A stretch of DNA of 64,000 nucleotides from assembly GCA_010093605.1 (NCBI GenBank), contig MU004185.1:145334-209333 (forward strand), in the 5' to 3' direction. This DNA is from Lophium mytilinum (Eukaryota; Ascomycota; Dothideomycetes; Mytilinidiales; Mytilinidiaceae). Below, piece by piece: positions 15,323 through 58,720 of this stretch (position 1 is the first letter of the stretch; each line of letters starts with the position of its first letter). The position numbers and the translations under genes are program-made. The notes beneath the pieces were generated by a model, which was given only the letters and a program-made list of their open reading frames with translations, ran no database searches and had not been told where the DNA came from.

Positions 15323-17990
15323 ATAGTAAAGGCTAATATACTTTAAATAGAGACTAAGTAGTAAGTCTAGCTTATATATAGTAGTATCTAGACTTAATAG
15401 ACTAATCTATATATAGAGAGGTTACTACTAAGCCCTTCTTCTAACTCTACTTTAAGGGCGCTAACTAATTCTTTAATCTTCTATATAGTATATATAAAAT
15501 TTTAGTTATAAAGAATAAATTAAATAAACTATAGAGAGTAGAACTTAAAAAGATACTTACTACTTAAATAACTATAATATAGTCTACTAATAGGTTTAAG
15601 TCTATAGTAACCTTTAAAGAGAAATATAGTAACCTCTAAAAGCGCTAGAGATATACTAAATACTAACTTAATTCTATAGTAAACATTCTAATCTTAAAAG
15701 GCTAAATAGAGGTAATAGATACCTACGCCCTTACTATTATTCTAATAACTATGCCTAATACTACCTATATAGTAAAGCTTACTAAGGCGCTATAAGACTA
15801 AAAGCTACTAAAGTAAGTTATAATTAAGTACTAATTTAGAATCTCTACTTAGATGCGCCCTAGCCTACCTACTAATATACTAGGTATATAATAGTANNNN
15901 NNNNNNNNNNNNNNNNNNNNNNNNNNNNNNNNNNNNNNNNNNNNNNNNNNNNNNNNNNNNNNNNNNNNNNNNNNNNNNNNNNNNNNNNNNNNNNNNNNNN
16001 NNNNNNNNNNNNNNNNNNNNNNNNNNNNNNNNNNNNNNNNNNNNNNNNNNNNNNNNNNNNNNNNNNNNNNNNNNNNNNNNNNNNNNNNNNNNNNNNNNNN
16101 NNNNNNNNNNNNNNNNNNNNNNNNNNNNNNNNNNNNNNNNNNNNNNNNNNNNNNNNNNNNNNNNNNNNNNNNNNNNNNNNNNNNNNNNNNNNNNNACTCT
16201 CTACTTAATACTATCTATACTAATAAGAAGTTTAAGGCTATAATAATAGATAGTTTTACCTAGATATACCTAGTTATATCTATACTAGATACTCTAGAAA
16301 AGTTAGTATCTATAGAAGTATAAGCTAGAGAATTTTATAGCCTTAAGTAGCCTCTAAATCTACTATAAACTATACCTCCGCTTCTAGAGTTATAGAAGGC
16401 TAAACTTCTTACCTAAACTAACCTACTATTTATTAGAATAGTAGAGAACCTACTAGTACTCTAGTATAACTACTATATCTACTCTTCTATTAATACTCTA
16501 AGTAAGTATATAGACCTAGATTATATTCTCTATTTTAAGATTACTACTTCTAATATAAAAAAGTAAAGTCTAGATAATAAGTACTAGTATGCTACTTAGA
16601 TAGCATATAAAAATATCGCCCGGTATACTATACTAGTTAACTTATTATAGAAATAGGTTAATGCCTAGACTTATAAGGAGTTTTATAAGGTATTATATAA
16701 TATAGCTACTAAAATACTTATAGTATTACCTATAACACTAAATATAGTAAATATAATAAATAATATAGTAGAGGGCTTTATAGATATAACTAAGCCTCTT
16801 TATATATATCTAGATTAGTACTAGGTTCTAATAATAGAGGATTATATACTACTAGAGGGACTATATACTATTAATATTTTCTACTAAGGCCGCTCTAACT
16901 AGTTTCTATTCCTATTTAAGTTAGTATAGGTTATAGTTAAGCAAGTTTATAACTTTAAGATAACTAGTAGACTAGAAGGGCATAGTAAATATAATATTAA
17001 GAATATTTTTAGGTACTACGCTAAGGTACTAGATAAGTTTAAGGCTGGCTAGGCTAAGGCTAGTAATAGTGCGGAGGGGGATAAATAGAATACTACTAAA
17101 GTCTACTATATTAATAGTCTAACCTTCTATATAGACTACTATATAGCTAAAGATTTTACTATATTTATTTAAGAACTAATTACTAATAGCACTATTAACT
17201 ATTATAAAGTAAGTAGCTATCTAGTAGTTAGCTATTACTACTCTACCTTTAGCTATAATAGAAGTAATAACTTCTACTCTAAGTATAATACTAGTAAAGA
17301 TAATAATACTAACTAAGATAGTACCTATACGCTATACTTAGGTAATAATAAATTAATATACTAGTAGCTAACTATCTTAAATTACATCTATAAGGCTATT
17401 TTAGACCTTAAGAACTGCGCTAGGCTCCTTAATAAAGATAGTAATAGTAGTAATAACTTAAACGCGTAAGATAATTATAGACTATAGAATCCGCGTAAAG
17501 ATAAGCTTAGCTAGAGAATGCAGGACTATATAGCTAAAGCGTTAGCTAAAATATAGTAAGTAGTAGAGGGCTACTATAATTAGAAATAATTAATAATAAT
17601 TAAAAATAATTAGATATTCTGCGGGCGGCCCGGGTAGACTATAGTATAAGAGTTACTACTAGCACTAGTTATAGGCGCCGGCAACTTAGATAGAAGGTAG
17701 TATCCCCGCTACTAATTTAAAGGTATTAGTAATCTAGAAGTCTTCTATATCTATATACTTAATTTAAAATACTAAGTTATTATTATATTTACTATAGGTT
17801 ATATATATAAATACTAGATAGTAATATATATAGCCTATAAGCTAATATCTTTCTAGGGCTAAATATCTACTAGCCTAATTTCTAGCACTATTAATAAGGG
17901 CTTAATAATTCTTTAGCTTCTCTATTAACCTAGTATAGAATAGGGCCTAGAGTTTCACCGGGGTATTATTATAAAAGTAGCTAAAGAACT
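15323..17990 (+). pseudogene. Degraded plus-strand ORF of unknown family, interrupted by the assembly gap
   Basis: From about 16,200 to 17,640 one plus-strand frame reads as protein-like when stops are ignored. Examples are QTYKEFYKVLYNIATKIL and SKYNIKNIFRYYAKVLDKF, followed by a Ser/Asn/Tyr-rich stretch and a CGRPG-like segment near 17,620. Most interrupting codons are TAG, as expected if CAG or TGG were hit by RIP. I do not recognise the family. It could be the N-terminal or accessory ORF of the neighbouring Plavaka-like element or a separate element. Confidence 0.4.
15897..16195. other. Assembly gap
   Basis: This is a run of 299 N. It falls in the AT-rich repeat block just right of the Gypsy element, where short-read assemblies commonly break, so the true distance is not known. 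Confidence 0.99.
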
Positions 17991-35697: not shown

Positions 35698-36385
35698 ATG
35701 ACCGACAGCGTCCCCCCAAGCCTCACAGACGGCATCACCGAAGTGTCTACTGCCGGCCCGCCAACACCTCCTCCAGGTAGGGGTCTGCCGCACGTTCCCG
35801 GCCCTGATATCAACAACTGGCTCGAGAACGTCGCCGCAAATACTCCCACTCCGCCGCCTCGTCCTGCCGATGTTCCAGCAGAAGACACGCAAGTGTGGCC
35901 GCATCCTCCGCCGCCGCCTGCACCCCGCCCGAGAGTTGCGCAGCTTCATCGCCCAGTTGGCATGGATGTGTTTGCTTTTGCGCCCCCTCCGCGTCCTGAG
36001 CCGGCTACGCTGCGTCTGGAAGAGACTACGATGCGTCCTGGACCAACTACGCAGCGCTCTGAGCCTACCCCTCCGCGTGCTGAACCAACTACGCCGCCTC
36101 TCGAGTCTACTGCACTACGTTCTGAAGCTACTACGCCACGTCCTGAACCGACTCCGCAGCGTCCTGAGCCTACCACCCCGCCTGCCGAACCGACCCCTCT
36201 ACGTCTTGAACCAACTACGCCGCGTCCCTGAGCCCACTACACTGCGTGCTGAAGCGACTACGCCGTGTGCCGAAGCGACTACACCGCGTGCCGAATCTAT
36301 CACTCTGTGTCCCGAACCTACCACACCGCGTCTTGAGGATTGGGGGATGACTAAGGGAGCGGGAGTGCTGCAGGCTTTGCTATAA
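35698..36385 (+). pseudogene. Pro/Thr-rich repeat protein gene with an apparent +1 frameshift
   Basis: The ORF opens at ATG 35698 (MTDSVPPSLTDGITEVSTAG), runs through a Pro-rich stretch and then a seven-residue repeat of the type RPEPTTP, and stops at 36231. The same repeat continues immediately in the next frame (VPEPTTLRAEATTP onward) to a stop at 36385, ending LEDWGMTKGAGVLQALL. The break falls at a cgtccctgagccc word near 36,224-36,229, where sister repeats read cgtcctgag, so one extra C explains it. It is either a real frameshift or an assembly error in a short C-run. No signal peptide or known domain is seen, and the function is unknown. Confidence 0.55.
35985..36340 (+). repeat. Coding minisatellite of 21-bp units
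   Basis: About sixteen imperfect 21-bp units of the form cgtcctgaaccaactacgc encode the seven-residue repeat (R/L)-x-E-P-T-T-P. Units vary mainly by substitution. The only indel noted is the extra C near 36,226 that shifts the frame. Confidence 0.75.
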
Positions 36386-43319: not shown

Positions 43320-46300
43320 ATGGCGTCGGGGGGAGGCAACATTAAGGTCGTGGTGCGCGTGAGGCCGTTTAATGGACGAGGTGCGTTGTGGAGAGCTGGA
43401 GAGCATAGTGGGAGAATACTAATGTTTCGTAGAGATCGCCCGCAATGCAAAATGCATTGTCCAGATGGACAAGGACCAGACGGTCCTGACACCCCCGTCT
43501 CACGTCGATGGAAAGCTTTCCAAGTCCGCGAAGCAAGCCCTTGATGGGGCTAAGACATTCGCTTTCGACAAGAGCTACTGGTCCTTCAACCGCAATGATC
43601 CTCACTTCGCTAACCAGGAGGATCTTTTTACAGATTTGGGGAAGCCGCTGCTGGATAATGCCTTCTTGGGATTCAATAACTGTATCTTTGCGTATGGGCA
43701 GACGGGTTCGGGGAAGTCATACTCGATGATGGGGTATGGGGAGGAGGCGGGTGTCATCCCGAAGATCTGCAGGAACATGTTTGAGCGCATCGAAGAGATG
43801 CAGAAAGACAAGAATCTGAGTTGCACCGTCGAAGTGTCCTACCTGGAAATCTACAACGAGCGCGTCCGCGATTTGCTCAATCCGTCCACGAAGGGAAATC
43901 TCAAGGTCCGCGAGCATCCTTCCACCGGACCATACGTGGAGGATTTGGCGAAGCTACTGGTGCGGTCGTTTCCGGAGATTGAGAACCTGATGGACGAGGG
44001 GAATAAAGCTAGGACGGTTGCTGCGACAAATATGAACGAGACTTCCAGTCGATCGCACGCGGTCTTCACTCTCATTCTGACCCAAAAGAGGCATGATGTT
44101 GAGACCAGGATGGATACCGAGAAAGTCGCCAAGATCAGTCTGGTGGATTTGGCAGGTTCGGAGAGAGCTACATCCACTGGCGCGACTGGTGCAAGATTGA
44201 AAGAGGGTGCGGAAATCAACAGATCACTTTCTACACTGGGTCGTGTCATTGCGGCACTTGCAGATCTATCATCGGGCAAGGGTCCCGGCAAGAAGAAGAA
44301 CCAAAACATGGTGCCCTACCGGGATTCTATCTTGACATGGCTACTCAAGGACTCGCTAGGAGGAAACAGTTTGACCGCTATGATAGCTGCAATCTCGCCT
44401 GCTGATATCAATTTCGACGAGACGCTCTCCACGCTTCGATATGCCGACTCCGCCAAGCGAATCAAGAATCATGCCGTCGTCAACGAGGATCCAAACGCCC
44501 GCATGATCAGAGAATTGAAGGAGGAGCTCGCTCAACTTCGTTCGAAACTTAGTGGAGGAGCATCTAGTGGTATTGTTGAAGAACAATACGCGCCTGATAC
44601 CCCACTAGAAAAGCAGATTGTCTCAATCACGCAGCCAGATGGTACCATCAAGAAAGTCTCAAAAGCTGAGATTGTGGAACAATTAAATCAATCCGAGAAG
44701 CTATACACAGATCTCAACCAGACCTGGGAAGAAAAGTTACAGAAGACGGAGGAAATTCACAAGGAACGAGAAGCCGCACTAGAAGAGCTTGGTATCAGCA
44801 TCGAGAAGGGGTTTGTTGGATTATCAACGCCCAAGAAGATGCCACATCTTGTCAATTTGAGCGACGACCCTCTACTCGCCGAATGCCTGGTGTACAATTT
44901 AAAGCCCGGAACTACGACCGTTGGAAACGTGGAGTCCGCGACTACAGCCGAGATTCGATTGAATGGCTCCCAAATCCTACACGACCACTGCGTATTCGAG
45001 AACGTCGATGGTGCAGTCACCGTAGTGCCTCGAGACAACGCCGGCGTCATGGTCAATGGCCAGCGAATAGAAAAACCAAAAAGGTTACGCAGTGGCTATC
45101 GAATCATCCTAGGCGACTTTCACATCTTCCGGTTCAACAATCCCCAAGAAGCACGAGCTGAGCGAGCTGAACAAGGAAGCCTTCTCCGCCATTCCGTTAC
45201 AGTAAGCCAGCTTGGATCTCCATCTCCTAGACCTGGTCACGACAGATCTTGGAGTACTGTTAGCAGACCCGAGTCGGAGTTTGACTCCGAAAGCCCTGGA
45301 GCGGCTTCACCAAATCCATTCCAGCCACGAAACGGGCGTGATTCCGATTGGTCGTATGCTCGGCGAGAAGCTGTGACTGCAGTGCTAGGGACTGATCAGA
45401 AAATCAATAGCTTGACTGACGAGGAACTTGACGCTGTCTTCGACGATCTACAACGAATACGGGCTGTCCGGAAAGGTAGACCAGAGAGTAGGATGTTCGA
45501 TCAAGAAGACGATTTGGATTCTGTATCAACTTATCCGGTCCGAGAAAAATACGCCTCCACCGGAACCATCGACAACTTCTCCTTGGACACTATGCTGACT
45601 ATGCCCTCAACTCCTCAGCCAGGTGAGGAGGACGAGCGTCTCCGATTGGTCAGGGAAGATATGCAGGATCAAATAGACAAGCAAAAGGAAGAATACCAGG
45701 CAAAGCTGAAATCTGCAGAAGAAGCCAACGTCGAGATTGAAGAAATCAAAGCAGAAAAAGTCAAAATGGAGGAGAGCCTTCGGACTGCCAAGGAAGAAAT
45801 GCAGAGACAGCTACAGGAACAGAAAGAGGAATTCCAAAGGCAGCTACAGGAGCTTCAGCAACCTTTATCACCTTCATCGAATGGACATGTAGGGCCACCA
45901 GAGCCAACCGAGAAGCAAATGGAACTTGCAAAAGCCGCTTTCCAACAATGGCGACAAAGGAAATACGTTGCTATGGCGGAAACGATCCTCCAGAATGCCG
46001 CAACCTTGAAAGAAGCTCAAGTGATGAGCCAGCAGATGGACAAGCACGTGGTGTTTCAGTTCTGTATTGTAGATGTTGGGCACTCTTTTGCTTCCTCTTA
46101 TGATCTAGTACTCAACGGGATACCCGGGGAAGACGACGAAGACCTCGACATGACACCGAAGCCATGCGTTGGCATCCGAGTTGTGGATTTCAAGAATCAG
46201 GTCGTACATCTATGGTCATTACAGAAGCTTCGCGTCCGAGTGCGGCTGATGCATCAGATGCACCAGTATCTCAACCGACCAGAATATCTGCAACACTTCA

Positions 46301-48306
46301 GCTTAGAGAATCCTTTCCTAGAGCCCTGCATGCCGGAGTTCTCGAGGATTGGGGATGTTGATGTCCCTCTGTCTGCCGTCTTCGAATCCCGAGTTCAGGA
46401 CTTCAGCCTCGATGTTATCTCTTCGTATACCGCGAATGTCGTAGGGATAGTCAGGCTTTCTCTCGAGCCTTCATCAGCCGAAGCGCCTTCCACAACCTTG
46501 AAGTTCAATGTGGTTATGCACGACATGGTTGGATTCCCGGAACGCGAGGGAACAGACGTTCACGCACAGCTGTTTGTACCGGGAGTCTCTGATGAAGGCG
46601 GCGCGACAACTACACAGATGATCAAGGACTTCGACGAGGGCGCGATTCGTTTCGAAAGTGTTCACAGCATGAGCCTTCCCTTCGCTAGCCCTCGCACCTC
46701 GTTCCTTCGCGCTTCGATATTCGCCAAAGTAACTACCATGCATCTTGATAAGCTACTTAGTTGGGATGACATGCGAGATTCGGCAGTCAAGCCGAAGAAG
46801 AAGCGCCTTGCCTCTCGCTTACCAGAGTCTGAGTTCTTCACTGAAGAGGTTCATGATATTTTCTCGCGCATTCAGATCCACGAAATTTCCGAAGACGGAT
46901 CCTATCAACCTGTCGAAGTTATCCAAAACAGCGTTGGAGATGAAGGCGCTTATCAACTCCATCAAGGGCTACAACGACGGATAGTAGTTAACCTCACCCA
47001 CACCTCGGGCGAGACTTTACAGTGGCACGACATTGCCGGACTCCGCGCGGGTCGCGTTCGTCTTGTCGACTCCTCGGGTACAGCTCCAGCCCTCGATTCG
47101 CCTGTCCACGAAATTCCCATCGCGCTCGTGCACCCACCCACAGTTAAATCCAACGCCGACGGTACGACAAACGTGACGTTCATCGGGCAATGGGACTCAA
47201 GTGCACATGGGTCCCTTCTTCTTGACCGTGCCACACCGGACAAATACCGTGTGCAAGTTTCGCTTCTCTGGAACGTCTCCAGCACCCGCCTTGCCTCCCC
47301 CATGGTCTTCTCTCTTGATCTAGATATGCAGATTCGTGCGCGAAGCTTCTTGCGCCAAACGAGTCTCTTTGGTTTCGCCAACCTTTGGACCACCACAAGG
47401 GTGGTCCACTCTACAACTGCTATATTCTCAGTCGCTATACGTCCTACCTCGGTCAAGCGTGCGACAGATCTCTGGCGGATGAACACTCGCGATGATTTCG
47501 TAAAAGGGGAGGAAATGTTAGCCGGTTGGACGCCCCGAGGCGTCAGTCTCGTCAAAGACTTCATCGCCACTCAAAAGCGCCGACGACGAGTAGCAGAGAT
47601 CGAAACAGTCCGAAGCGTCTTAAGCAGCCGCGCCCTCACTCTCCCCACCACGAATGGCTTTGCTAACGGCACATCCGCCGCCATTGACGACCTCGACGAC
47701 CGCCGCAAAGCCCTACTAAATCGCGTCCTCGCACTCTGGCAGACAAAGAAGGAACCCGCCGAGATAATTCTTAACACTACGAATCTCGAGCCCCCGTCGT
47801 CTGGCGCCGCTTTTGCTGCACGCCCACTCCACCCTTCGAACCCAAACTCCTCCAGCAACGTCAATATGCCTGCGTCTCCTGGCCTCTCCTCCGCCCCCGT
47901 TTCTCCCTCGCCTAATCCGACATTGATCGCAACCGTTCGCCACTTACCCAAGAACCCGGCGCTCATGAAAGGAGGTTACCTGCTCATGCCGGACCCCTCC
48001 TCATCACGATGGGTACGGCGGTATGTCGAGCTACGAAAACCGTACCTGCACATCTACTCTGTGCCCGAAGGGGATGAGATCAACGCTGTCAGTTTGCGGA
48101 ATAGTCGTGTAGATCACCAGCCGCAGATTGCGAGGCTGTTGGGCGGAAGGGTCGGGGGAGATAGGGGTGGAGAAAGTGTGTGGGCCGTATTTGCACGCGG
48201 AAACAGCTATCTATTCAGAGCCCGGGTGGAGCGGGAGAAGATTGAGTGGATACTGAGGATTGACGAGAGTTACTTCTCGAGTGGCAGTGGAAGTGGGGAG
48301 GACTGA
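43320..48306 (+). CDS. uncA: Kinesin-3 (Unc104/KIF1 family) motor, 1644 aa
   Basis: Exon 43320-43380 encodes MASGGGNIKVVVRVRPFNGR. A 52-nt intron follows, then one exon of 4.87 kb (43433-48306), in frame across the junction (E codon G/AG). It is a plus-end-directed microtubule motor for vesicles and endosomes. Domains: motor about 1-372 with P-loop GQTGSGKS (109-116), switch I NETSSRSHA (about 221) and switch II DLAGSE (about 258); neck linker and short coiled coil; FHA domain about 513-593; coiled coil about 763-830; KIF1B/DUF3694-type stalk region; and a C-terminal PH domain about 1529-1636 (KGGYLLMP to WILRIDE) for phosphoinositide-bearing membranes. All landmark motifs are intact and the length is normal for the family. 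The symbol follows the Aspergillus nidulans orthologue by domain layout. Confidence 0.95.
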
Positions 48307-49090
48307 GTGCGGTATGGGATCGTATCTATTGTGTTATCGCAAAATAGGAGTTGGATACCTTCCAAGGATTTTGATTGCCAGGCGTTTGGGAGTATGGTAG
48401 GCCCTGATGCCGCTATGGAATACTTCATATTTTTCGTTCATCAACCACTCTCGTTTTTTCAGGGAGTCGGTCTACGCTTTGGATACCCAGGGTATTGGAG
48501 TAATTCCTATGAGTTGCGAGAAGACTTGATCGAGATGCTGGAACTGGGTGGTATAGATAGTATAGGGCGAGCGGTGGCAGTAGAAAATAATTGATCGTTC
48601 CAATGTAGCCCCCAGTTTTGCTGGTGATGTGCATAATCAAATATATTGTTGGGCGCAGTTTGGTATGTGGGACCGACCTCCTCCGCAGTTTTGCCCAGAT
48701 GAACGCTAATTGCTATTTGCTTCATGTTTCACAACTCACGGTTCACGGTCCTTTAGCGAAGTATCAAATAAGAAAAGATATCCATGTTATGCGATGCGAC
48801 GCTACGCTATTATCTATCCACGCGTCCCAACCCCGACTCCTCCAATATCCATGAGTCATGAACTCTCTGCTTCTTGATCTTCATGCCAAAAACCTCCGCG
48901 GTCGCTAAATTCCCAACGCTCTGCCCGATACCAATCTGGACTGGAGAAGGCAAAACTCCTCTCTCTGCTTCCACTCATCATCCACCACTGACGGGTGTTG
49001 TGCTGTTTTGAACTACACATCCCAACCCACAAATGCACTCTTACATCGAAAATGCCGCAACTCCACCGTGGTTCATGAACGTTTTGGCGG
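48307..49090. other. Kinesin 3' region, no gene
   Basis: AT-leaning sequence after the kinesin stop, with no ORF of interest and no repeat units yet. The repeat array to the right starts at about 49,100. Confidence 0.5.
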
Positions 49091-49099
49091 CTTGATTCC

Positions 49100-52000
49100 A
49101 TGTCTTTGGACTGTTGTTCCTCAAAACACTGCCATCGTACATCTGGGCTCAGGTTTGGTTTCCACTCCCTCCAGCCATGGCGAATATGGACGGAGCATTT
49201 CGAAAACGCCCTCCCAGACAGGCCCACATAACCCATATCGAGATGATGCGGCGAAGACATCAATTTGTTGGACAAGTCTATTTGATGCCAGTTCTACCGA
49301 ATCGAGCAGCAGAGTCCATGCTGCCTCCAATCGTCCCAGTTCGCTGCCATTCGATGCTTGAACACAGTGTTTGTTCCCTCTGCTTCTGGCCATACGAGGA
49401 AATTTTCGTCAAGTTCGAGAAGGATCAGAAACTTCACCACCCGAATTAATGCCAAAGTCCGCATAATATTTGCAGTACGGTGGTTTGAGTCGAGCAAGCA
49501 AGCCATATGGTTTCCTGAGAGTCGTATTCGAAAGCAGCGGGGCGCACACGACTTTTCGAGATCTCCCAGCACACTGCCATGATTCGAAAACGCTTAAGGT
49601 TTGGCAGTGGATTTATCTGCTTCCAGACATAGCGTAAGCAACAAGGAAGTTTTGATCAACAGCCCTCGAATTCTCAAGCGAGATCCGCATACTCAATCGT
49701 GTGATAGGGAATTAGTTTTCCCAGGAAAGTCATCAGCAGCCCACTGGTATCCTTTTGAAGCGGCAAGCGGCAGAAACAGACACGGCCTCGTCATGACAAA
49801 AGCTCGGTATGGCGGCTCATGAAAGACTGCCTTCAGCATTGATGGGCACAAACGGCCATGACACGGTAATGAGTGTCGTTTCGAAGCGACGCCATTCAAT
49901 TGTATCAATCTCGAATCCAGTGAAGATTGTCTTCAGGATCCGCATGTGGCCGCAGAGGATCATAGGATATCGCAGAGTGCAGTTTGGCACGCCCGCGACA
50001 GTCATGATTACTGTGTGTAGATTGTTCGAGAGGGTGGCGTGCCCACGGCCTTCCCATCTAGTGACTAGTGGTGTGATTGTATTCGGACTCCTGATCGATA
50101 CCGGTGAGCACGAACTCTGACTAACAGCATAGCCAAATTCGAGAAAGTACCGTAATTTAAGGTCCTGCTCTTTTCTTGGTGTATAACCCTCGACGAAGCG
50201 GTAAACGAACATACCCCAGTGACAACTAGGAGTACCGTTTTAGATCTTCCAAAGCGGCCATTTTGATGTGCCTTGGCATGTTTCTTGGATTTGGGAGTAG
50301 TCGCGGCCTCTCCATAAAAGTAAGAGTTTTTTTGAATTTATTCGGATTTTCGGAGGATTTACTGACAACCCGAACGACCATTCGAAGCAACGGTACGAGG
50401 TTTTTGCTCTCCAGAAAAGCCACATATCGGATTGTGAAGAGAATTTCTAGGTGTCAAGAGCGCACGCCACCTTCCCATCGTATGCGTTCAAAGGTTTTTT
50501 CGATCAGAAGCTTTCAAAACATCGGCTACTGTGTTGATGTTTATGAAGGAGCATAGACAGGACATTTTGGCCGGATGGCACGCCGAAAGCATCCATGTAT
50601 CGTTTCTCGATTCGATTGTGAAGGAGCAAGAGTACTCGCAACTTCCACATGCAGAAGCTGGATAGTCACAAGTGATTCTCGAGGGACCCGCCACCGGGTC
50701 CGCAAAGGATCATTCGTTGCCTTGTATTCGGCTTTCGGTGCCCTGAAAAATATGGAGAAGGATAATCCTCTTTCTCAAGGAGCGAGAACGCTCGCGGCTT
50801 CTGCATTCGAAAGGATTTTCTTCTGCTCGTCAAAGCTGTTCATAACATCCCACTTATCGAGCTGTAACGAATCGAGGTATGCCACGATTGGCTAGGCACG
50901 CCGACAAGATCCATCGCACGAATCCTAGTGCTAGATTCCGTGGTGGCGAGAGAAAGTCTAGCACCATTTGAAGTGCTTTAGAAAGCTACCAGAGCTGCTA
51001 GAACACTCGGGTTACAGCATTTCGGAGTGCTAAACTTTGCACATAAGCCCCGAGAAAGCGACTACTTCCACGCGGGTCGGCTCTCCATATAACTTTCCCT
51101 AAAGCTGTGTTTACGTGACTACTCAGAGATACCATCGACCGGGAAGGATATTTTACTAAAAGAGTTGGTTTCCAGACAGGAACATAAAATCCTTCTTATG
51201 CTATCTCCGATGGGCGAAGCAAAAGCGGCCATGACCTCATCGGGTAAGCTTATATGGCACACCCCGAGGATCCATGACATACTTGGCGTTCCTTTTGGAA
51301 GCAAAAGGAATAGAATCCTACATCGTTTATGGTTGCCAGTTGCAGAGCCATGCTTCTGCGTTTGCTGCGGTTCTCTAATCTCGCAGGCAAACGCCCATAC
51401 GGAGGTGTAGTACATGGTGGGTGATCTTTTCGAATCCAAAGCAACGCCATGGTGCGGTGTGGAATTGAGTTACGATCCAGAAAGTACGGAACCATGGGGT
51501 CGAATCGCGAGACCTGCGTCAACGAGCTGATATCAATATGAAAAGCCAGTTTCCTTGGGATTTTTTCTTCGAATCACACCACGAACCATCATTGTATGTC
51601 GGCTGAAGCGAGGCCTGTAATTTCCCAAAGGCGCACAGCCATGGCTGTACCCATAGAGTGTTCGAAAACGAAAGAAAACAGAGTCATGAAACACTTTGGA
51701 CTCCTGGTTTGCTCCACCGTTCCTCTTCATAGAGTCCCGTTTTATTCAAGAAGAGCTTTAGCGCCACTTTCTCATCGCCCGATTCTGTTTAGTTCGTTAA
51801 TTAGAGCTCTGCAGTAGCTCTACATTGCATGAAGTGCCACCCAAGTCAGTACATCTTGACTCAACGTCATGGCTATTGCTTGTCATGGACCGTCGTTGGT
51901 CGATTCCCATGAAGCGTGAACTAAGCTCACGAGTATGTCACCATGTAACGCAGGGACTGCTAGATGCTGATCCAGAAAGCACAAGGCTATCACCTATATC

Positions 52001-55000
52001 ATCTGTGAAATTATCGAGTCATGCCTCGTCCGTGTTGACAGTTTCAATTCTGGAAGGCAAACAGCCATCATCGATGTCTTGGATAGACTTTTGATCGCTG
52101 TTTCCGAACATGTTCTAATGGAGCCCCGATGTTTGGATTGCCAATATAGATAGGCATCGTTTGCCACTGTGCGGCGGTTCGATCCCCAGACGTACAGCAA
52201 TCAGCCTTTGATATGAAAGCTCGAGCACAGAGAGCAGCCAGCCATCCGGAGGCATAAGGTGTAGTTCTGAACAGAGAACACAGCCAGTCTAAGTTGAGGG
52301 CCAATCTTCAGATCCAGACACGACTTCCTCTTGCAACGGCTCTCTTTCTGCTCCCAAGGCACAGTACCATCGCCACTGTTTGTTCGATTCGTGTGTTCGA
52401 ATGGAAAAGCAGTCAATGCCTGCTCGACTCTTCAGCAGATAAATCCGCAGCTCACGGGCATTGGTACCAGAGTATCGAATTTTAGCTCCACAACGCAAAC
52501 AGCCATGTAGCTGGGCCTCAAGAATATTTGATCCCACGCACAAAGCTCTGGTCGAGAAACTCCTTCTCTTTAGTACACAAAGCACCCAGCAATGATACGT
52601 CCGCTATTGAGACTCTTCCAGAGTCAAAGATTTCACAGAGCGCCATTTTCTTTAGTGTTTGACTCGCAAGACCGCGACCCATTTTTCCTTCCAGAACGAT
52701 CTCCTGATTCCTCGACACATCGTCCAGTTCGTAGGGTTCTTTTTGGTACACAAGAGCTTGGATAACTTTGTCCTATCACGTGATGATTTTAGATGCTTAC
52801 TTTGAGAAGACGCAGCCATACTGCGACACCAGATGGAGCCCTTTGTTACATTGTAAAGCTAGCTGCAAGGCCATTATGTGAGCATGCAGAGGCATCGTTT
52901 CAGCGAAACCCCAGCCTGTAACCGTTTCTGAAGGGAACCTACGGAGATCCACGAAACACAAACCCATTCGCTCTTCGGATTAAAGAATTTCAATTCCTGC
53001 TACTCAGGAACGCTAGCCATGAACGACGGCTTCGAAGGTGTTCCAAGACACGAGCCGCATGGGATCTCTTCTGTGCCGGTAAATGCATAGATACGTTCCA
53101 TCTAGAGAATGTAGCCATAGGAAGATTCAAGAGCTGTTTCTTGATCTACAGGGCACATTCCATACCAGAGGCGGCGGTTTGTAAAGGATAACGGAAGCTA
53201 AATCTAGCCAACCCTTGTAACCTCCCTTGGAAGGAAATCCTCAAGACCCGAAAGACACATCGTCTGATTGTAGAGTCTTTGATTCAGACACACACACATA
53301 ATTCTTTCTCCTCTTGAGTTGTTCCTGCTCAAACGCACACAGAATGTTGCTAACGCGTATGCTCTTCTGGAACCGGTGTAGGCGGATCAAGCCCAGAGAC
53401 TCAGCCATTCAGGTTCCGAGTTGGTTCTTTCAATTCACAGAACTCATGCGATATGCTGCGGGAGCAGCTTTAAATGATTTGATCCACATCACATGTCGTG
53501 GTGTTCACTCATTTTGCTGTGATCTAGAAAACCCAGCACACAACTAACTCCGTCTGCTCATGGATGATGCCTCCAATCTTCCTGTACAAGGCACAGCCAC
53601 GACCATTCTTTGATACCGGGTCCGTTTTTGACGAGACGAAAGCCCGTCAATGCAGCAAGCTGCAACAATTTTGGATGTTCCGAGGATGCTCGAGGCCAGG
53701 AAACGCTGCCATGCAGTGCTTCCAGAAGTGAAGTCGATTCACGAGCCACACCCATAACTCGATGCTAAAGGTATTGCGGCCAAAAGACGCTGTTATCGGT
53801 CCAAAGAGTTCTCAGATTTGAAAATTTCAATTACCACAGCCATGAAGCACCCATCCAGCGTCTTATCGGAATGATTAGACTTTAGAGGCTTGCGTTGAGT
53901 AACGAATTCACCACGGCATCTTGCCAGGCTTTTTGATACCCATAAACCACTCTCATAGTGCTTTTCCGATGGCTGATTTGGATTAGACACCCCAGTCCGG
54001 AAGCTGCAGCCATAACACCATTGTACCCATATTTTCGATCTCCCCATTGGCCAGGCGAAGAAGTATGTTTTTTCTCGAGAACAACTAATTGAAGTCCACC
54101 CGTATGCTAAACGAGATCTCCCGATGGCGCGATCCCATGTCGCCAGGTAAAGCGGGTTGAGCGATACCTCTTACAGCTATGAGGAGATGGACAACCGATG
54201 TTCAACCTGTTTGCGACACTTCGGTTCCGAAGACGCCCTCATGAAGCTAGGCCAGTCTATATTGAGACACGGACACTCTCATGAGGCGTTGGCGGCGGCA
54301 GTTTGAAACATGCAATCTTCGAAGATTTCAGCCTCGAAGACACTGTCATTCAACCTATCGTCTGGGGTTATTGATCCGCAGCCACACGCTCATAGTTGCT
54401 GCTCATGTGTCTTATCAATACTTCGGTCAGAGCAATGCCCATAAACCAATAAGGACAATCGCTTCTCACTCCATGGTACCACCTTCTAGGGGGTGTTTCA
54501 TGAGCTTCTCGGTACGCACAGGCTCAGATACTCCGGCTCAGAAATGCAGTCATAACTTGCAAAGGTATCTGTTTTTGGAGCACCACACACGCGCCCATGT
54601 CGCGAGTATCTAGGATATGGATACACGGACCCACCAAAAGCTCAAGCATATTGATGTACCACTGCGCAATTTTCTCTTTTGCTCCCTCACCACCACCTGG
54701 GAGGGATAGCCTAGCTCGCAGATGTCAGATCACGAGATACATAGCCCTCCTTCGGGCGGCGTTGTGGAAAACCTGTAGAGTACCCCAAGCGGCGGCGAGA
54801 CAGAGTACCTCAACCTAGCTCTCAGGACTGTACTGCAGATGCTCCCATGGGATCCACTCGAGTAGGCTTTTTTTGGCCCGACACCGCGGCCATAACGGGC
54901 CGCTCGATGAGCTTTTGATACAAGAACCATTCTCATGGCCAACGCTGCTTTAACCTGTGAAAGCTGCAATTCACACGATGCACCATCAGTGTTCGGATGC

Positions 55001-55860
55001 AGATGTATTTTTTGGCTCCACCACTTCCACCACCATGCGTGTTTCCACTGTCCTCTTTATAAAGGTTTCCGAGCATAACACTCGACCTGTTTGGAGGCCA
55101 TTGGGCCAGGAAAACGCAGCCATCGAATCTTTGTTGGAGGCATCTCGATCCCGGAACACACCCCCATGGCGAGTATGTTCTAGGCATGTGTAAGGCTTCC
55201 AACTGGCAGAGCACCCATCGGGCTCGGGCAATCTTGATTTGATCCACAAACACGCCCATCAAATGATTTTGGAGGGGTTTTTAGTCGCTTTGATCCAGTC
55301 CAGGAGACAGACCCACATCGACTAGCTCATCCGTGTATGCGGATGGCCTGAGTTGTAGATCCAGAGGACACAGAGTCATGGGAGACCTCGTCTTCAGTTT
55401 TGGTACAAAAACCACAGCCATGTCTGTGGATGACGAGAGGTTTCGATCCACAGGACACACGCCCATGCTCCTTGCTGATGACATAACTGTATTGATCTGG
55501 ATGCTGGGATCCAGAGACGCTGCCATGCATTTCTTTCGTTACATCTTTTTGATGCACAGGGTACCATTCGATGATGTCGTTTCGTGGTATGTGAAAGCTG
55601 CGAGTGCTTCAATCCAGAGAGATTCGAGGATGCAGCCATTGCATGATTGGATGTTTTTTTTTGCGATCCCCAGAGCACACGCACATGGCGCGATCATCCA
55701 AGGTGCCGATATGGTCCAGGGATACAGTCATGAAATTGGCGGACATCCAGTTTGGGATCCCCAACTCTCACAGCCATCTTGCGCACCCCACCTTAAGTGC
55801 GAGCCTGTTCAAGACACCTAACAGTAACACCCAGGACACACCCACGCCCACATTCCTTCT
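49100..55860 (+). repeat. 6.8-kb array of a degenerate short core repeated at variable spacing
   Basis: One core, approximately ATCCAGARNACACAGCCAT, recurs on the plus strand through the whole stretch. The heptamer CAGCCAT alone occurs at least 13 times in this orientation, e.g. 49172, 51636, 52062, 52239, 52500, 52813, 53402, 53837, 54007, 55117, 55415, 55633 and 55771; under one is expected by chance. In the best-kept part (55,210-55,850) cores follow at 41, 59, 62, 41, 45, 60, 41, 72, 47, 45, 46 and about 68 bp. A T-rich word ending in cgatcc often precedes the core. Spacers are not similar to each other by eye. Composition is balanced, so it is not RIP debris. No ORF exceeds about 160 codons, and spacing is not a multiple of three, so a coding repeat is unlikely. 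It resembles a very diverged minisatellite or a cluster of binding sites. Confidence 0.75.
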
Positions 55861-55869
55861 TCGCCTCGG

Positions 55870-57039
55870 ATCTTTCAAAATCCTCTCCCCACCCCCCCAT
55901 GTAGAGCGTTGACTTGCTGTGATGACCGACCAACTACCAGCCCAACCCACCTCCAGACCATACATAAAGGCCTCGCTGTAGTTCTGTACCATCCGACCGA
56001 ACTCCACAACATCTCCACGCCATTCTTTACTCTAGTCCTTAGCTTAAATACCAAGACTTCCCACAACCCTCTCCACACCATCGATCATGGAGCTGAATCA
56101 TTCTGATCCCTCTCCCCCCTCCCCATCTCCCACCCCTCTGCTCCAAACCCAACTCCCTCGGGGCCTCCATCCTTCTTATATACCCCACCCCCTCCGTCCC
56201 CCTCCGACCCCGCCGACACCGGCGCTGCGCTGGCCATCACACGCCCCACCCTCGGTTCCGATACTCCCCGTTCGCGTCCGAGGCCACGTTGCGCGTGACA
56301 TGCTCGGGAAGGAGGACATCCGGGAAAAGGGAGGGGAAAGTAGTCAGAGGGCCAGGGAAGAGCGAATCAGAAGAAGGGGCGCGGAAAGACGGAGAGGGGG
56401 ATGAGCTGGATGACTAGCTTAGCGAGCATGTGAGCAGCGGGAGCGAATAGGAGAGTGGCACGGGGCGAGGAAGGGGTCGGAGAGCGAGGAAGAAGAGGGG
56501 ATGATGAGGAGGGTGGATGGGGGTATGACTGACTCGGTGGACATGTGAAGGGGAGGGGCGTAGCACGAGAGGGCTGAAAGTTGACGCTCTGACGTTGAGG
56601 TAACGGGGGGAGAAGCATCGCGATGAAGACAAGATATCGGGAGGAGGGGCAGGAGGAGGAGGGGCGAATGAGAGCCAAGAACAGAAGGAGTGATGAAAAT
56701 ACCTAGCAAAGAACGAGGAAGAGGGCCACGTGATAGGATCGTGATTTGATCTGGTCGCGAAGATTTTGAGAAGATGAAAGGGGGATTTTTTCACGCTTCA
56801 CAAACTTGAAAGCAGGAGTCGAAAGAGTTCAGAAATGATATGTATATCTGATGAACTTCGTATGATACCGTGGATATACCAAACCCAGATTTCCACCGCC
56901 ACATACCAGTGACATATCCATATATTCCAGAGACCCAGCCCACACCAATCCTATCCAATCCAAAAGAAAATATAAATGTTATCTACAAGAAGTGTACTGG
57001 TCCGACTGACCGACCTACTCACTCAAACGTCATAAGTAT
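55870..57039. other. Intergenic with a strand-skew switch
   Basis: From about 56,100 to 56,280 the plus strand is strongly C/T-rich; from about 56,290 to 56,760 it is strongly G/A-rich. Overlapping ORFs on both strands (e.g. 56087-56404 plus, 56414-56794 minus) are simple Pro/Ser- or Arg/Gly-rich products of this skew and are not supported as genes. The rest up to the glucanase stop is unremarkable. Confidence 0.5.
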
Positions 57040-58720
57040 CTACGAGGAACCATGCCTCTTCTCTTTCAACTGCGCCAAGTGACGCGCACGCCTCCGAGCT
57101 GCTTTCTCGGACTTAACCTCGCTCTCGCCACGCTTGCTGAATGTTTGACCGTGGTTGTGATGGAGACGGCTGTATGCCATGGGGTTGTTCGGGTTTCCAA
57201 CTGGTGCACCCACGCTCGCAGGCGCACTTGTAACCGCCGCGCTCGACGCGGCACTCAAAGCACTCGACGCGACACCCAAGGCAGTTGAAGTCGTCACGGC
57301 ATCCCCGGGGTTCACGGTCTCGGTCAGAGTGATCGTTTGGGTGACGGTCGATTTCGATTTCGAGCCTGAAGCAGTGGGGAAGGTATTGTTGGTAGCGTTC
57401 TGATTCGGGAACGGGAAGGGCGCAATAGTGCCAGTGCCTGTCGCGAAGAGGCCGGAGGGGGTGGGGAAGACACCGTGTGAAGAGTCGGAGCTGAGAGTCG
57501 GGAAGGGGGCGATGGTGCTGGCCTTTGTAGAGATGGCGAAAGTAGTCTTCGTCTTGGACGGGGTGGGGAAGCCGAGGGAGAGGGAGGGAATCGAGAGGGA
57601 TGGGACAAGGTCGGAGGTTGAGGCGACGATGGTAGAGGCGATGGCCGAGGATTGGGACTTGGAGATGGACAAGCTGTCCATGGGCTTATCTGCGCTTTGC
57701 TGGAATACCTTGAGCGAGTTGATGCTCCAGTAGGCCTCCGAGAAAGAGGAAGGGTTGTTCTGGACAAAGGAGTTGCAGCTGTCAGCTTTCGACGCGCAGG
57801 AGCCGCTGCTCCAGACTGCGCCGGCCCAGTCGCCACAGAAGGTGGTATCGAACACAATCTGTTGGCTCTTGAAAGTTGTAGCAATGTCACAAGCTCCCTT
57901 GAACGTCGCACTAGGCTCTCCCCAGCCAGATGGGTCAGGAGAGCTGTTGATGTCCGACGGGACTGCACCGCGGGGGAAGAAGTAGATGTTGATGGCGCTG
58001 GACGTCCATTCGGTGGCGAAGACACCGCCGCCATTGTTGTTCAGCCCAGCACCGTAGCTAACGGTGGACTGGTCGACGATTTGGCAGCCAGAATTCTTGG
58101 ACTGGCCTTCAGCGTTGACGTCGCAATTGTCGGTGCTGATGGATCCGGAGAAGCCGCCGCCGTTGGTGATGGCGCACCCGGGGCCCGTGTGAAGGGTCAT
58201 GGCGTTGGATGCTTGCTCGTTGACACCTTCAATGATATCAATCTCGCCACTATGATGAATAAGTATAAGACAGGAATTAGGTGGTGATTGACTTACTTGC
58301 TCGGCCAGCTCGGGCCTACCATCCAAAACGCAGGCCAAGTTCCACAGCCAGCAGGCATGTGAGCCAGGTCCAAGATGACCAGACCACTGTCGTAGGACGC
58401 TTTGCTAGTGAGCCGGACGCTCGGCCTTCCGTTTGGAGTCTCATTGGTATGATCGACGCCCATATAGACGTTTCCATTGGGAGTGGAGGTCAAGTTGCTG
58501 CTTGACGCAGTGCTTGAGTCGACATATTTCACGAAACCTTTTCAAGTCAGTCAGAGCACATTCCCAAATTCAAGTACAACACACCATTGGTAGGGTCTTC
58601 ACTCGTGAAAAAGTCAAACATGCTGAAGAAGTTTGCAGAGCTGTAGTCATCCTCCAAAACATAGCCAGCTATGCTAAGGCGGGTGAGGGCAGCAGCGGTA
58701 AGGAGCGTGGAGAACAGCAT
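57040..58720 (-). CDS. Secreted GH16 endo-beta-1,3(4)-glucanase, 528 aa
   Basis: Exons on the minus strand are 58720-58585, 58537-58297 and 58249-57040, with two 47-nt GT-AG introns, in frame (1587 nt). GH16 enzymes cleave beta-1,3/1,4-glucans in cell walls. Seen: signal peptide [19 protein letters not shown]; the family opening [19 protein letters not shown]; the substrate-cleft segment [12 protein letters not shown]; the catalytic motif [10 protein letters not shown] with E128 (nucleophile), D130 and E133 (acid/base), completed by splicing; then [10 protein letters not shown] and the Cys-rich end of the fold. After about residue 330 there is a long Ser/Thr/Pro tail and a basic C terminus ([21 protein letters not shown]). 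No hydrophobic GPI signal ends the protein, so secretion or wall retention through the glycosylated tail is more likely. Confidence 0.92.

Follow-up and report, generated by a model that had tools for sequence, protein, structure and literature searches.

The window analysed here is a 64,000-nucleotide stretch of the Lophium mytilinum genome (assembly GCA_010093605.1, contig MU004185.1), and the array that we describe lies between two of its open reading frames. At the far end of the array, a kinesin frame of the KIF1/Unc104 type ends (positions 43,423–48,306, plus strand); an earlier sequence-only reading had named it a kinesin, and Pfam matches to Kinesin (E = 1.1e-106), KIF1B, FHA and PH confirmed this. 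The same reading called the neighbour on the other side a glucanase. This 454-residue frame (57,040–58,404, minus strand) matched no Pfam family and the assignment was not confirmed.

Between these frames, on the order of a hundred copies of a degenerate core had been noticed, all in one orientation. A two-block hidden Markov model (HMM) of the core gained 314 nats over background on positions 49,000–56,000, compared to 57–71 for six shuffles, and decoded 112 cores (49,027 to 55,953), 75 of them at a posterior above 0.8. With fixed parameters, the plus-strand model was positive in 7 of the 64 one-kilobase tiles of the window, exactly those from 49 to 56 kb, while the minus-strand model rose above zero in two tiles (+3.3 and +1.2), both within the array. 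When retrained on the reverse strand of 49,000–56,000, the HMM gained 195, probably by learning the mirror image of the motif. Both the number and the single orientation of the cores are thus borne out, and the comparison with shuffled sequence that had been named as a check gave about 110 degenerate cores, far more than in shuffles. Tandem Repeats Finder, run as a further such check, was silent on the array.

Spacing differed from the earlier description. Instead of two classes, we found one tight class, with 43 of 111 intervals at 41–47 bp (mode 43–45) and just 8 of 111 at 59–62 bp. Nor did neighbouring intervals pair up to roughly 100 bp, since adjacent sums of 97–106 occurred in 20 of 110 cases versus 15.9 after permutation. 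The 49 to 56 kb extent held, except that related units, with linkers that are G-rich on the minus strand, extend as far as a promoter-like site, to about 56.12 kb. These adjoining units (55,872–56,120, minus strand), recognized by the parse and a score of +17 on 56,001–57,000, are of a type common at other loci. The score comes from a general model trained on eight other loci, for which the window, L046, L038, L048 and L049 are independent tests. The array is best kept at 55,114–55,780 (minus strand; parse, and top tile score of +86 to +97 per kb), and conservation is lowest at about 50.74–51.13 kb, where 384 bases carry no decoded unit. From the decoding, the tiles and the proximal extension, we delimit a putative transcription unit at 49,030–56,130, with the minus strand as RNA sense and plus-strand motifs in the order ACACAGCCATG, N18, TTTYGATCC, linker of 4–7 bases. 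Two expectation-maximization runs in which gaps were left free ended in weak motifs and were set aside. A covariance model built on unit pairs lacked power, with 2 matches in the window; from a set of 27 unit pairs, 21 entered the analysis.

The single core of the earlier description proved incomplete. It overlooked a second anchor, TTTYGATCC, at a fixed distance after CCAT, and so missed the grammar of the unit. In the window array, TTTYGATCC stands at the fixed offset in 25 cases versus 2.8 expected, with a reverse-strand maximum of 8. On the plus strand, each unit consists of ACACAGCCATG, a rigid spacer, TTTYGATCC and a short T-poor linker that leads to the next unit. A typical unit, at 55,412–55,449 (RNA sense on the minus strand), has plus-strand letters CCACAGCCATG (55,412–55,422), an 18-base spacer (55,423–55,440) and TTTCGATCC (55,441–55,449). 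Over 11 loci, the spacer measured 17–19 bases in 174 of 194 confident units, that is, the 295 decoded minus 101 with either block at a posterior of 0.8 or less. Units are mostly 38–50 bases long (37 to 52 within L046), and the linker between them is free in length, from 4 to about 17 bases. In RNA sense, the unit reads CAUGG(G)UGG, linker, GGAUCRAAA and about 18 unique bases; an invariant A precedes the spacer, which itself begins with no preferred base. The corresponding strand of the arrays reads CATGG...GGATCAAAA, and over nine arrays it is clearly marked, TCAAAA occurring 54 times in sense and 5 in antisense and GGATCRAAA 26 times in sense and never in antisense.

The spacers had been judged mutually unlike by eye, and this is so: in no pair of the 178 distinct spacers do 14 or more positions agree, the flanks being alike. 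Intermediate likeness is absent (0 pairs with 14–17 matches). Weak same-strand likeness is slightly in excess (394 pairs with 9 matches versus 300 shuffled), in part through positional composition. In the window array, core identity is 0.382 between neighbours and 0.376 between units far apart, and that of the post-core spacer 0.260 versus 0.263. At L040, the best 18 pairs have a flank identity of 0.81; linkers peculiar to this locus are also kept (0.69), with spacers at shuffle level (0.44 versus 0.42). One unit of L044 is present in exact threefold copy, its spacer included, which shows growth by tandem duplication, and L046 repeats every four units (about 171 bp), with linker-plus-block identity falling to 0.65–0.71. 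Against 305 kb of DNA (0.7% of the genome), the spacers gave 6 non-self 13-mer matches, compared to 6.9 for shuffles; a genome search with 62 spacers was insensitive and did not recover their own source. Pairing between neighbouring spacers was at the random level (longest run 3.79 versus 3.66), and with C/T or G/A collapsed, spacers had 10 matches in the AT-rich part of the window where shuffles had 5–16.

Searching the pattern across the genome, as had been proposed, revealed dispersed arrays. In the 43-Mb genome, one spaced pattern recurs at 85 places versus 13 for its reversed control, and further patterns, each against its reversed form, gave 28 versus 2, 143 versus 25 and 60 versus 8. 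Among the matches listed, 19 neighbour pairs lay within 3 kb versus 0.5 expected, and the gap between CCAT and TTTTGATCC was 18–20 bases in 52 of 100. A first pattern search, in which spacing was not fixed, had found 14 places, one of them in the window array, and no other array in the 3-kb surroundings. Thirteen further loci were inspected, one of them weak; L047 proved to be the same locus as L040 and was counted once. This genome-wide recurrence, together with neighbours that are no more alike and a spacer whose length is kept while its letters are not, speaks against an old minisatellite of which a selected core alone has escaped decay, one of the options first offered.

At the proximal end of the window array, a pattern search found TATATAA on the minus strand (56,176–56,182), facing into the array. 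Of the distinct arrays with a readable end, 13/13 carry a TATA-like box that lies on the opposite strand and is directed into the array if TATAAG, accepted after looking, is included, and 9/13 do so with the pattern fixed beforehand; the background is 0.064 per 155 nt and strand. This count leaves out L039, where the array reaches the edge of the piece, and L041, which scored −4.3 under the window model. At the other array end such a box occurs in 1/9. A CACGT/ACGTG box lies just upstream of the TATA-like box in 11/13 arrays versus 9.4% of control windows. The head of the window array has neither this box nor a TTCTTCAG-like site, both of which are seen at other loci. Because of the oriented TATA-like boxes and the upstream CACGT/ACGTG, each array has the appearance of a Pol II transcription unit, and that of the window would be read on the minus strand from TATATAA. 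The suggestion that the core is under selection and its minus strand message-like is consistent with a promoter-like site that reads this strand.

The unit, its rigid spacer, the unrelatedness of the spacers, the dispersal of the arrays and the head motifs with their orientation can all be read off the genome directly. We infer transcription of the arrays and the noncoding nature of their RNA. Very probably, the window array belongs to a family of noncoding array genes that are scattered over the genome and have promoter-like heads. A structured noncoding RNA locus had been among the first suggestions. The promoter-like sites do argue for an RNA, but folding of the window array does not exceed that of shuffles (mean z of −0.19 on the plus strand and −0.30 on the minus strand; controls −0.27 and −0.14), with no indication of hairpin precursors in the array region and no Rfam match. 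Several small elements were also rejected. As tRNAs, ARAGORN (bacterial setting) found nothing in the window and Rfam nothing in the array, and the Pol III B-box pattern occurred 0 times in sense and once in antisense over nine arrays. A micro-ORF (ATG, six codons, TTT, TGA) would need the G of ATG, present in 47%, and the T of TGA, present in 37%. The GT-AG borders of spliced micro-exons were absent by eye.

The most likely single mechanism, which we put forward tentatively, joins this noncoding array family to a guide-RNA step. A typical head, with its CACGT/ACGTG box and TATA-like box, would drive transcription of tandem units that run from close to the inferred start site. The conserved blocks would be processing signals that cut the transcript, or its RdRP copy, into RNAs of about 20–22 bases containing the unique 18, and Argonautes would take these as guides, so that one unit would be one guide gene. 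The genome carries Piwi-domain matches at about 10 loci, RdRP at 4 and Dicer at 2. In favour of guides we count spacers that are rigid in length and mutually unrelated, the genome-wide dispersal, the oriented heads, the marked sense strand and these RNAi genes; against them, spacer matches at the level of shuffles in the 305 kb compared, the lack of hairpin folding in the window array, the unbiased first spacer base after a constant A, four of the 13 heads that depend on TATAAG, the head of the window array lacking CACGT, the slight excess of weak spacer likeness and the distance of RdRP and Dicer, since none of the 4 RdRP and 2 Dicer loci is near an array among the matches listed. Fungal Argonautes favour a 5' U, which guides would have on the antisense strand only. 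At 2 of about 10 Piwi loci an array lies nearby, 3.5 and 3.8 kb from the match, a proximity noticed afterwards. It is possible, if somewhat doubtful, that the promoter-headed arrays supply the expanded Argonautes with unique 18-base guides, numbering in the hundreds or perhaps thousands, with spacers replaced or diversified faster than their flanks; by their layout, the arrays would then be an equivalent of guide arrays in a eukaryote.

The rigid spacer also bears on the other readings. A decoy or scaffold long noncoding RNA, like meiRNA for Mmi1, would have blocks that bind protein and spacers that are neutral filler. This accounts for promoter-like heads with arrays beginning near the inferred start, for motif copies by the dozen per locus and for constrained blocks beside free spacer letters, and it has a precedent in fission-yeast meiRNA (PMC4077057). 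However, flexible single-stranded RNA needs no set distance between blocks, yet the spacer is held to 17–19 bases, and the meiRNA hexamer UNAAAC is not enriched over nine arrays (20 in sense and 8 in antisense versus 14.3 shuffled); we consider such a decoy fairly unlikely. On a rigid duplex, a gap fixed at 18 bp whose letters are free comes naturally, and linker length between units is free. We keep the cluster of protein-binding sites suggested earlier as a rival, in which one protein or complex would contact bipartite sites, CCAT and, at a distance of about two helical turns on duplex DNA, TTTTGATCC, and transcription from the TATA-like box would be secondary. This DNA-level version predicts neither the inward TATA-like boxes at one array end but not the other nor the fixed orientation of units relative to them, and is unlikely.

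That the arrays are simply old tandem repeats, with flanks kept by some selection, spacers drifting freely and neither guide nor special product, appears improbable. The exact triplication at L044 is tandem duplication, and at L046 flanks have diverged far enough for free spacer drift to be possible. Drift alone would not maintain spacer length, however, and it leaves unexplained the missing intermediate likeness and the linkers kept at L040 beside spacers that are as shuffled.

No reading frame is kept across units: intervals are uniform modulo 3, in line with the earlier remark that spacing is not divisible by three, and spacers have no preferred frame, so that the decayed repeat-protein gene once suggested is not supported. 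Any repeat-protein gene, intact or decayed, is very improbable: sense frames exceed the shuffles' 95% limit in 5/9 arrays (maximum 312 residues, L040) and TAA and TAG are scarce in spacers, but antisense frames also exceed it in 3/9, the longest window sense frame has 140 residues where the limit is 165, L046 units vary in length as given above, stops are about equally rare in the three spacer frames (21, 17 and 14), and the stop shortage is mainly a TA shortage, since TGA is at expectation (28 versus 28.3), TTA is low as well and TA is low in control DNA too (0.79).

We know of no precedent in a eukaryotic genome for dispersed tandem arrays in which a promoter-like head goes together with a conserved block and an 18-base insert that is rigid in length yet different every time, and none of the open-licence titles and abstract openings listed describes any. 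The window array was missed by Tandem Repeats Finder, by Rfam and by ORF listing. As guides, the inserts would form a fungal small-RNA class with its own gene architecture, comparable to the piRNA loci of worms except for being arrayed. Should a protein read the array, its 18-base ruler would imply an unusual DNA- or RNA-binding geometry.

Several known systems share part of this organization. Minisatellites and higher-order satellites also have tandem units, with parallels in the four-unit repeat of L046 and the recent exact triplication at L044. Here, though, flanks alone are common to the units, spacers within an array are unrelated and the pattern is common to dispersed loci; apart from the L044 triplication, whole units are not alike and neighbours are not the most alike, and minisatellite decay is disfavoured. 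CRISPR arrays have a conserved block, unique spacers of near-constant length, strand polarity and a leader-like promoter end, and the arrays described here resemble them in each respect. They differ in blocks that are degenerate (0.65–0.81 identity within arrays) rather than near-identical, in spacers of 18 and not about 30 bases, in many dispersed loci in a eukaryote, and in an exact unit duplication (L044) that takes its spacer along; CRISPR is likewise disfavoured. Fungal milRNA loci are known from hairpin or paired precursors. The arrays are similar in that they, too, may be small-RNA loci of a fungus that has RNAi genes, but the window array has no excess folding. Fission-yeast meiRNA (sme2) is a long noncoding RNA with many copies of the DSR motif (PMC4077057). 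DSR motifs are single UNAAAC hexamers, whereas here two blocks stand at a fixed distance and at many loci.

Like the arrays, the type I piRNAs of Caenorhabditis (21U-RNAs) combine many loci, a common upstream motif and unrelated short sequences of fixed length, the worm ones being made by Pol II. The core of their Ruby motif, CTGTTTCA, occurred 0 times in sense and once in antisense over nine arrays. Each worm locus has its own Ruby motif and a 28–29-nt precursor (PMC4015492). In contrast to one Ruby motif per locus, one promoter-like head here serves a whole array. The likeness to 21U-RNAs extends to an expanded Argonaute family, found in this genome as well.

A two-block HMM fitted to the degenerate units at about 49.1–55.9 kb of the window gained 314 nats over background, compared to 57–71 nats for six shuffles and 195 nats when retrained on the reverse strand of the array region. 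It decodes 112 cores (75 at a posterior above 0.8), in line with the roughly one hundred estimated by the sequence-only reading. That these lie in a single orientation was confirmed with fixed HMM parameters, since the only positive plus-strand tiles, out of 64, are the seven at 49–56 kb. When 75 cores were aligned on CCAT, a second anchor appeared 3' of the core, with T at +23 to +25 in 55–71%, and the bases between carried little information. Cross-correlation of the two anchors gave 25 cases at one offset versus 2.8 expected (reverse-strand maximum, 8). A refined model, ACACAGCCATG - N18 - TTTYGATCC - linker, gained 428 nats, a value that stands without a shuffle comparison; its linker is T-poor and 4 or 6–7 bases long, and its spacer measures 18 bases in 40% and 19 in 19% of window-array units. 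Core-to-core intervals are 41–47 bp in 43 of 111 cases. Neighbouring cores are no closer in sequence than distant ones (identity 0.382 vs 0.376), and Tandem Repeats Finder called no array in 49.1–55.9 kb.

The window is C5:145334–209333 of a 43.18-Mb assembly in 24 contigs. Its GC content is 24–32% in the left 28 kb and about 47–59% in the remainder. Judged by its genes and base composition, the source resembles a filamentous ascomycete. The AT-rich part (1–28500, 24–32% GC) has many short tandem repeats and resembles RIP-affected fungal repeats; a run of N letters lies at 15897–16195. Within GC-rich sequence, a 21/42-bp tandem repeat at 35989–36331 is possibly coding, since its periods are divisible by three. 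Pfam bears out the kinesin gene beside the array and gives zero matches for the ORF on the other side, previously taken for a glucanase.

A genome-wide search, as suggested by the sequence-only reading, showed that the core recurs beyond this locus as a dispersed family. Allowing up to two mismatches, CAGCCATG-N18-TTTNGATCC occurs at 85 places, four of them inside the window array, compared to 13 for the reversed pattern. Nineteen neighbour pairs among the 85 lie within 3 kb, where random placement gave a mean of 0.5 and a maximum of 3 (200 trials). SYCAT-N19-TTTYGATCC matches exactly 28 times (about 24 places; control, 2) and at 251 places with one mismatch (control, 81). CCAT-N{5,35}-TTTTGATCC was found 143 times (control, 25), with a gap of 18–20 in 52 of the 100 matches listed, and TTGATCC-N{3,33}-CCCATG at 60 places (control, 8). 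Thirteen further loci (L036–L046, L048 and L049) were picked from pattern matches and then read; L047 is L040 with more flank, and L048 carries two arrays. The window model, trained on the window array, gave positive whole-piece scores for L043 (+83.9), L040 (+62.0), L044 (+58.9), L039 (+33.3), L045 (+28.1) and L042 (+9.1), negative ones for L041 (−4.3) and L038 (−7.7 / −11.0), and, in 500-nt tiles, +31 for L036 and +25 for L037. Across 20 stretches of 10 kb taken without selection (158 kb of readable sequence), it found zero arrays. Eight other loci served to train a general model, which scored arrays outside its training at up to +59 (L046) and +30 (L038) per 500 nt, +21.8 and +29.3 (L048) and +19.8 (L049). 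On window 49–57 kb, six of eight one-kb tiles were positive (the others −14 and −10), and 19 of the 20 unselected stretches yielded a single weak tile (+5) in all.

The spacers are held to a ruler and are unrelated in sequence. In 194 of 295 decoded units, from 11 loci, both blocks are confident, and in 174 of these the spacer is 17, 18 or 19 bases long. In a comparison of 178 distinct spacers, 16–20 bases long, every pair had fewer than 14 matching positions; the sole identical spacers belong to an L044 unit that stands in three tandem copies. Weak same-strand likeness is in small excess (394 nine-match pairs vs 300 shuffled). For length-18 spacers the count is 123 versus 106 in a column-permuted control, so positional composition accounts for much, not all, of it. 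Over about 1.8–4.1 kb of L046 (C9:540000–549000), units repeat in groups of four with a period of about 171 bp, which is close to a nucleosome repeat length, and linkers are phase-dependent. Linker-plus-block identity is 0.65–0.71 within phase and 0.495 between phases, and equal-phase spacers are no closer than shuffled ones (0.43–0.46 vs 0.42–0.46). Eighteen unit pairs of L040 show mean identities of 0.81 in flanks, 0.69 in linkers and 0.44 in spacers (shuffled, 0.42). Units thus originate by duplication, after which spacer likeness is lost and length kept. L046 can be explained by flank constraint with freely drifting spacers; for L040, which has also retained linkers specific to the locus, spacers that change faster or are replaced are somewhat favoured. 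In L044 (C13:869000–870400) the triplication around C13:869572–869472 is exact, spacer included, which shows array growth by tandem duplication.

At one end, the head, arrays look promoter-like. TATA[AT]A[AGT] or TATAAG lies at this end of all 13 distinct arrays for which it was in hand, on the strand complementary to the motif as written, directed into the array and within 152 nt of it (background, 0.064 per 155 nt and strand; 55/864). TATA[AT]A[AGT], fixed beforehand, accounts for nine of the 13, TATAAG having been joined after inspection. An inward-directed box occurs at one of nine opposite ends, two of which are under 50 nt, and in 3 of 14 head entries a first-pattern box no more than 400 nt away is directed outward. 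Eleven of 13 arrays have CACGT or ACGTG in the 90 nt upstream, versus 9.4% of control windows; the window array and L038 have neither there. TTCTTCAG comes next in 4 of 13 heads, with a looser form in three more. The window array has TATATAA at 56176–56182 on the minus strand, so that its transcript would run leftward from about 56.14 to about 49.1 kb, toward the kinesin 3' end. Counts summed across nine arrays are 26 in this sense and 0 on the other strand for GGATCRAAA, and 54 and 5, respectively, for TCAAAA. The two L048 heads stand back to back between their arrays, so divergent pairs may exist among the loci. L036 (C13:1372500–1379500), L038 (C5:477500–480500) and L048 (C1:843100–843900) have units of opposite orientation near one another.

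We infer that the arrays are transcribed and that their product is noncoding. As the sequence-only reading had held, 49.1–55.9 kb lacks long ORFs (no stop-to-stop frame exceeds 175 residues) and its spacing does not follow threes, window-array intervals being uniform modulo 3. Five of nine arrays have sense frames longer than the 95% limit of shuffles, and three have antisense frames beyond it. Stops are similarly rare across all three spacer frames; TAA, TAG and TTA are low, CTA is almost as expected and TGA is at expectation, which, with the low TTA, indicates that the shortage is mainly of TA. Of the structured noncoding RNA also proposed earlier, the promoter-like heads speak for the RNA, but folding does not speak for the structure: the window array folds as shuffled sequence does on both strands, Rfam has zero matches within it, and ARAGORN with bacterial settings returned nothing across the window. 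At 58510–58559 on the minus strand, Rfam weakly matches a C/D snoRNA of Caenorhabditis (28.2 bits, cut-off 50; E 0.035), probably by chance.

Each unit might give rise to one small guide RNA; for an insert of constant length and variable sequence, on a transcript headed by a promoter, this would be the likeliest single role. A decoy RNA is a serious rival, as is an array bound as DNA, the form in which the earlier proposal of clustered protein-binding sites persists. Spacers had no targets above chance in the 305 kb of genome compared. Piwi-domain matches number 16, at about 10 loci, which is many for an ascomycete; six have in-frame stops in unspliced translation. They include C1:829218–839602, C1:942505, C1:2120465, C1:2188517–2189567, C1:1345, C2:2071323, C12:1292186 and C15:439442. 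On C1, three Piwi copies in a row adjoin an array. As after-the-fact observations, L048 lies 3.5 kb from one Piwi cluster, L049 3.8 kb from another, and a Tudor-SN gene about 0.4 kb from the L036 array. RdRP is found at four loci and Dicer at two, none near an array among the matches listed.

No arrays of such layout came up in searches of open-licence literature. Near-identical repeats, a defining feature of CRISPR arrays, were not found in L046 or L040, although the layout is similar. Likewise, the Ruby core that defines worm piRNA loci is absent from the sense strand of nine arrays, which resemble those loci in layout.
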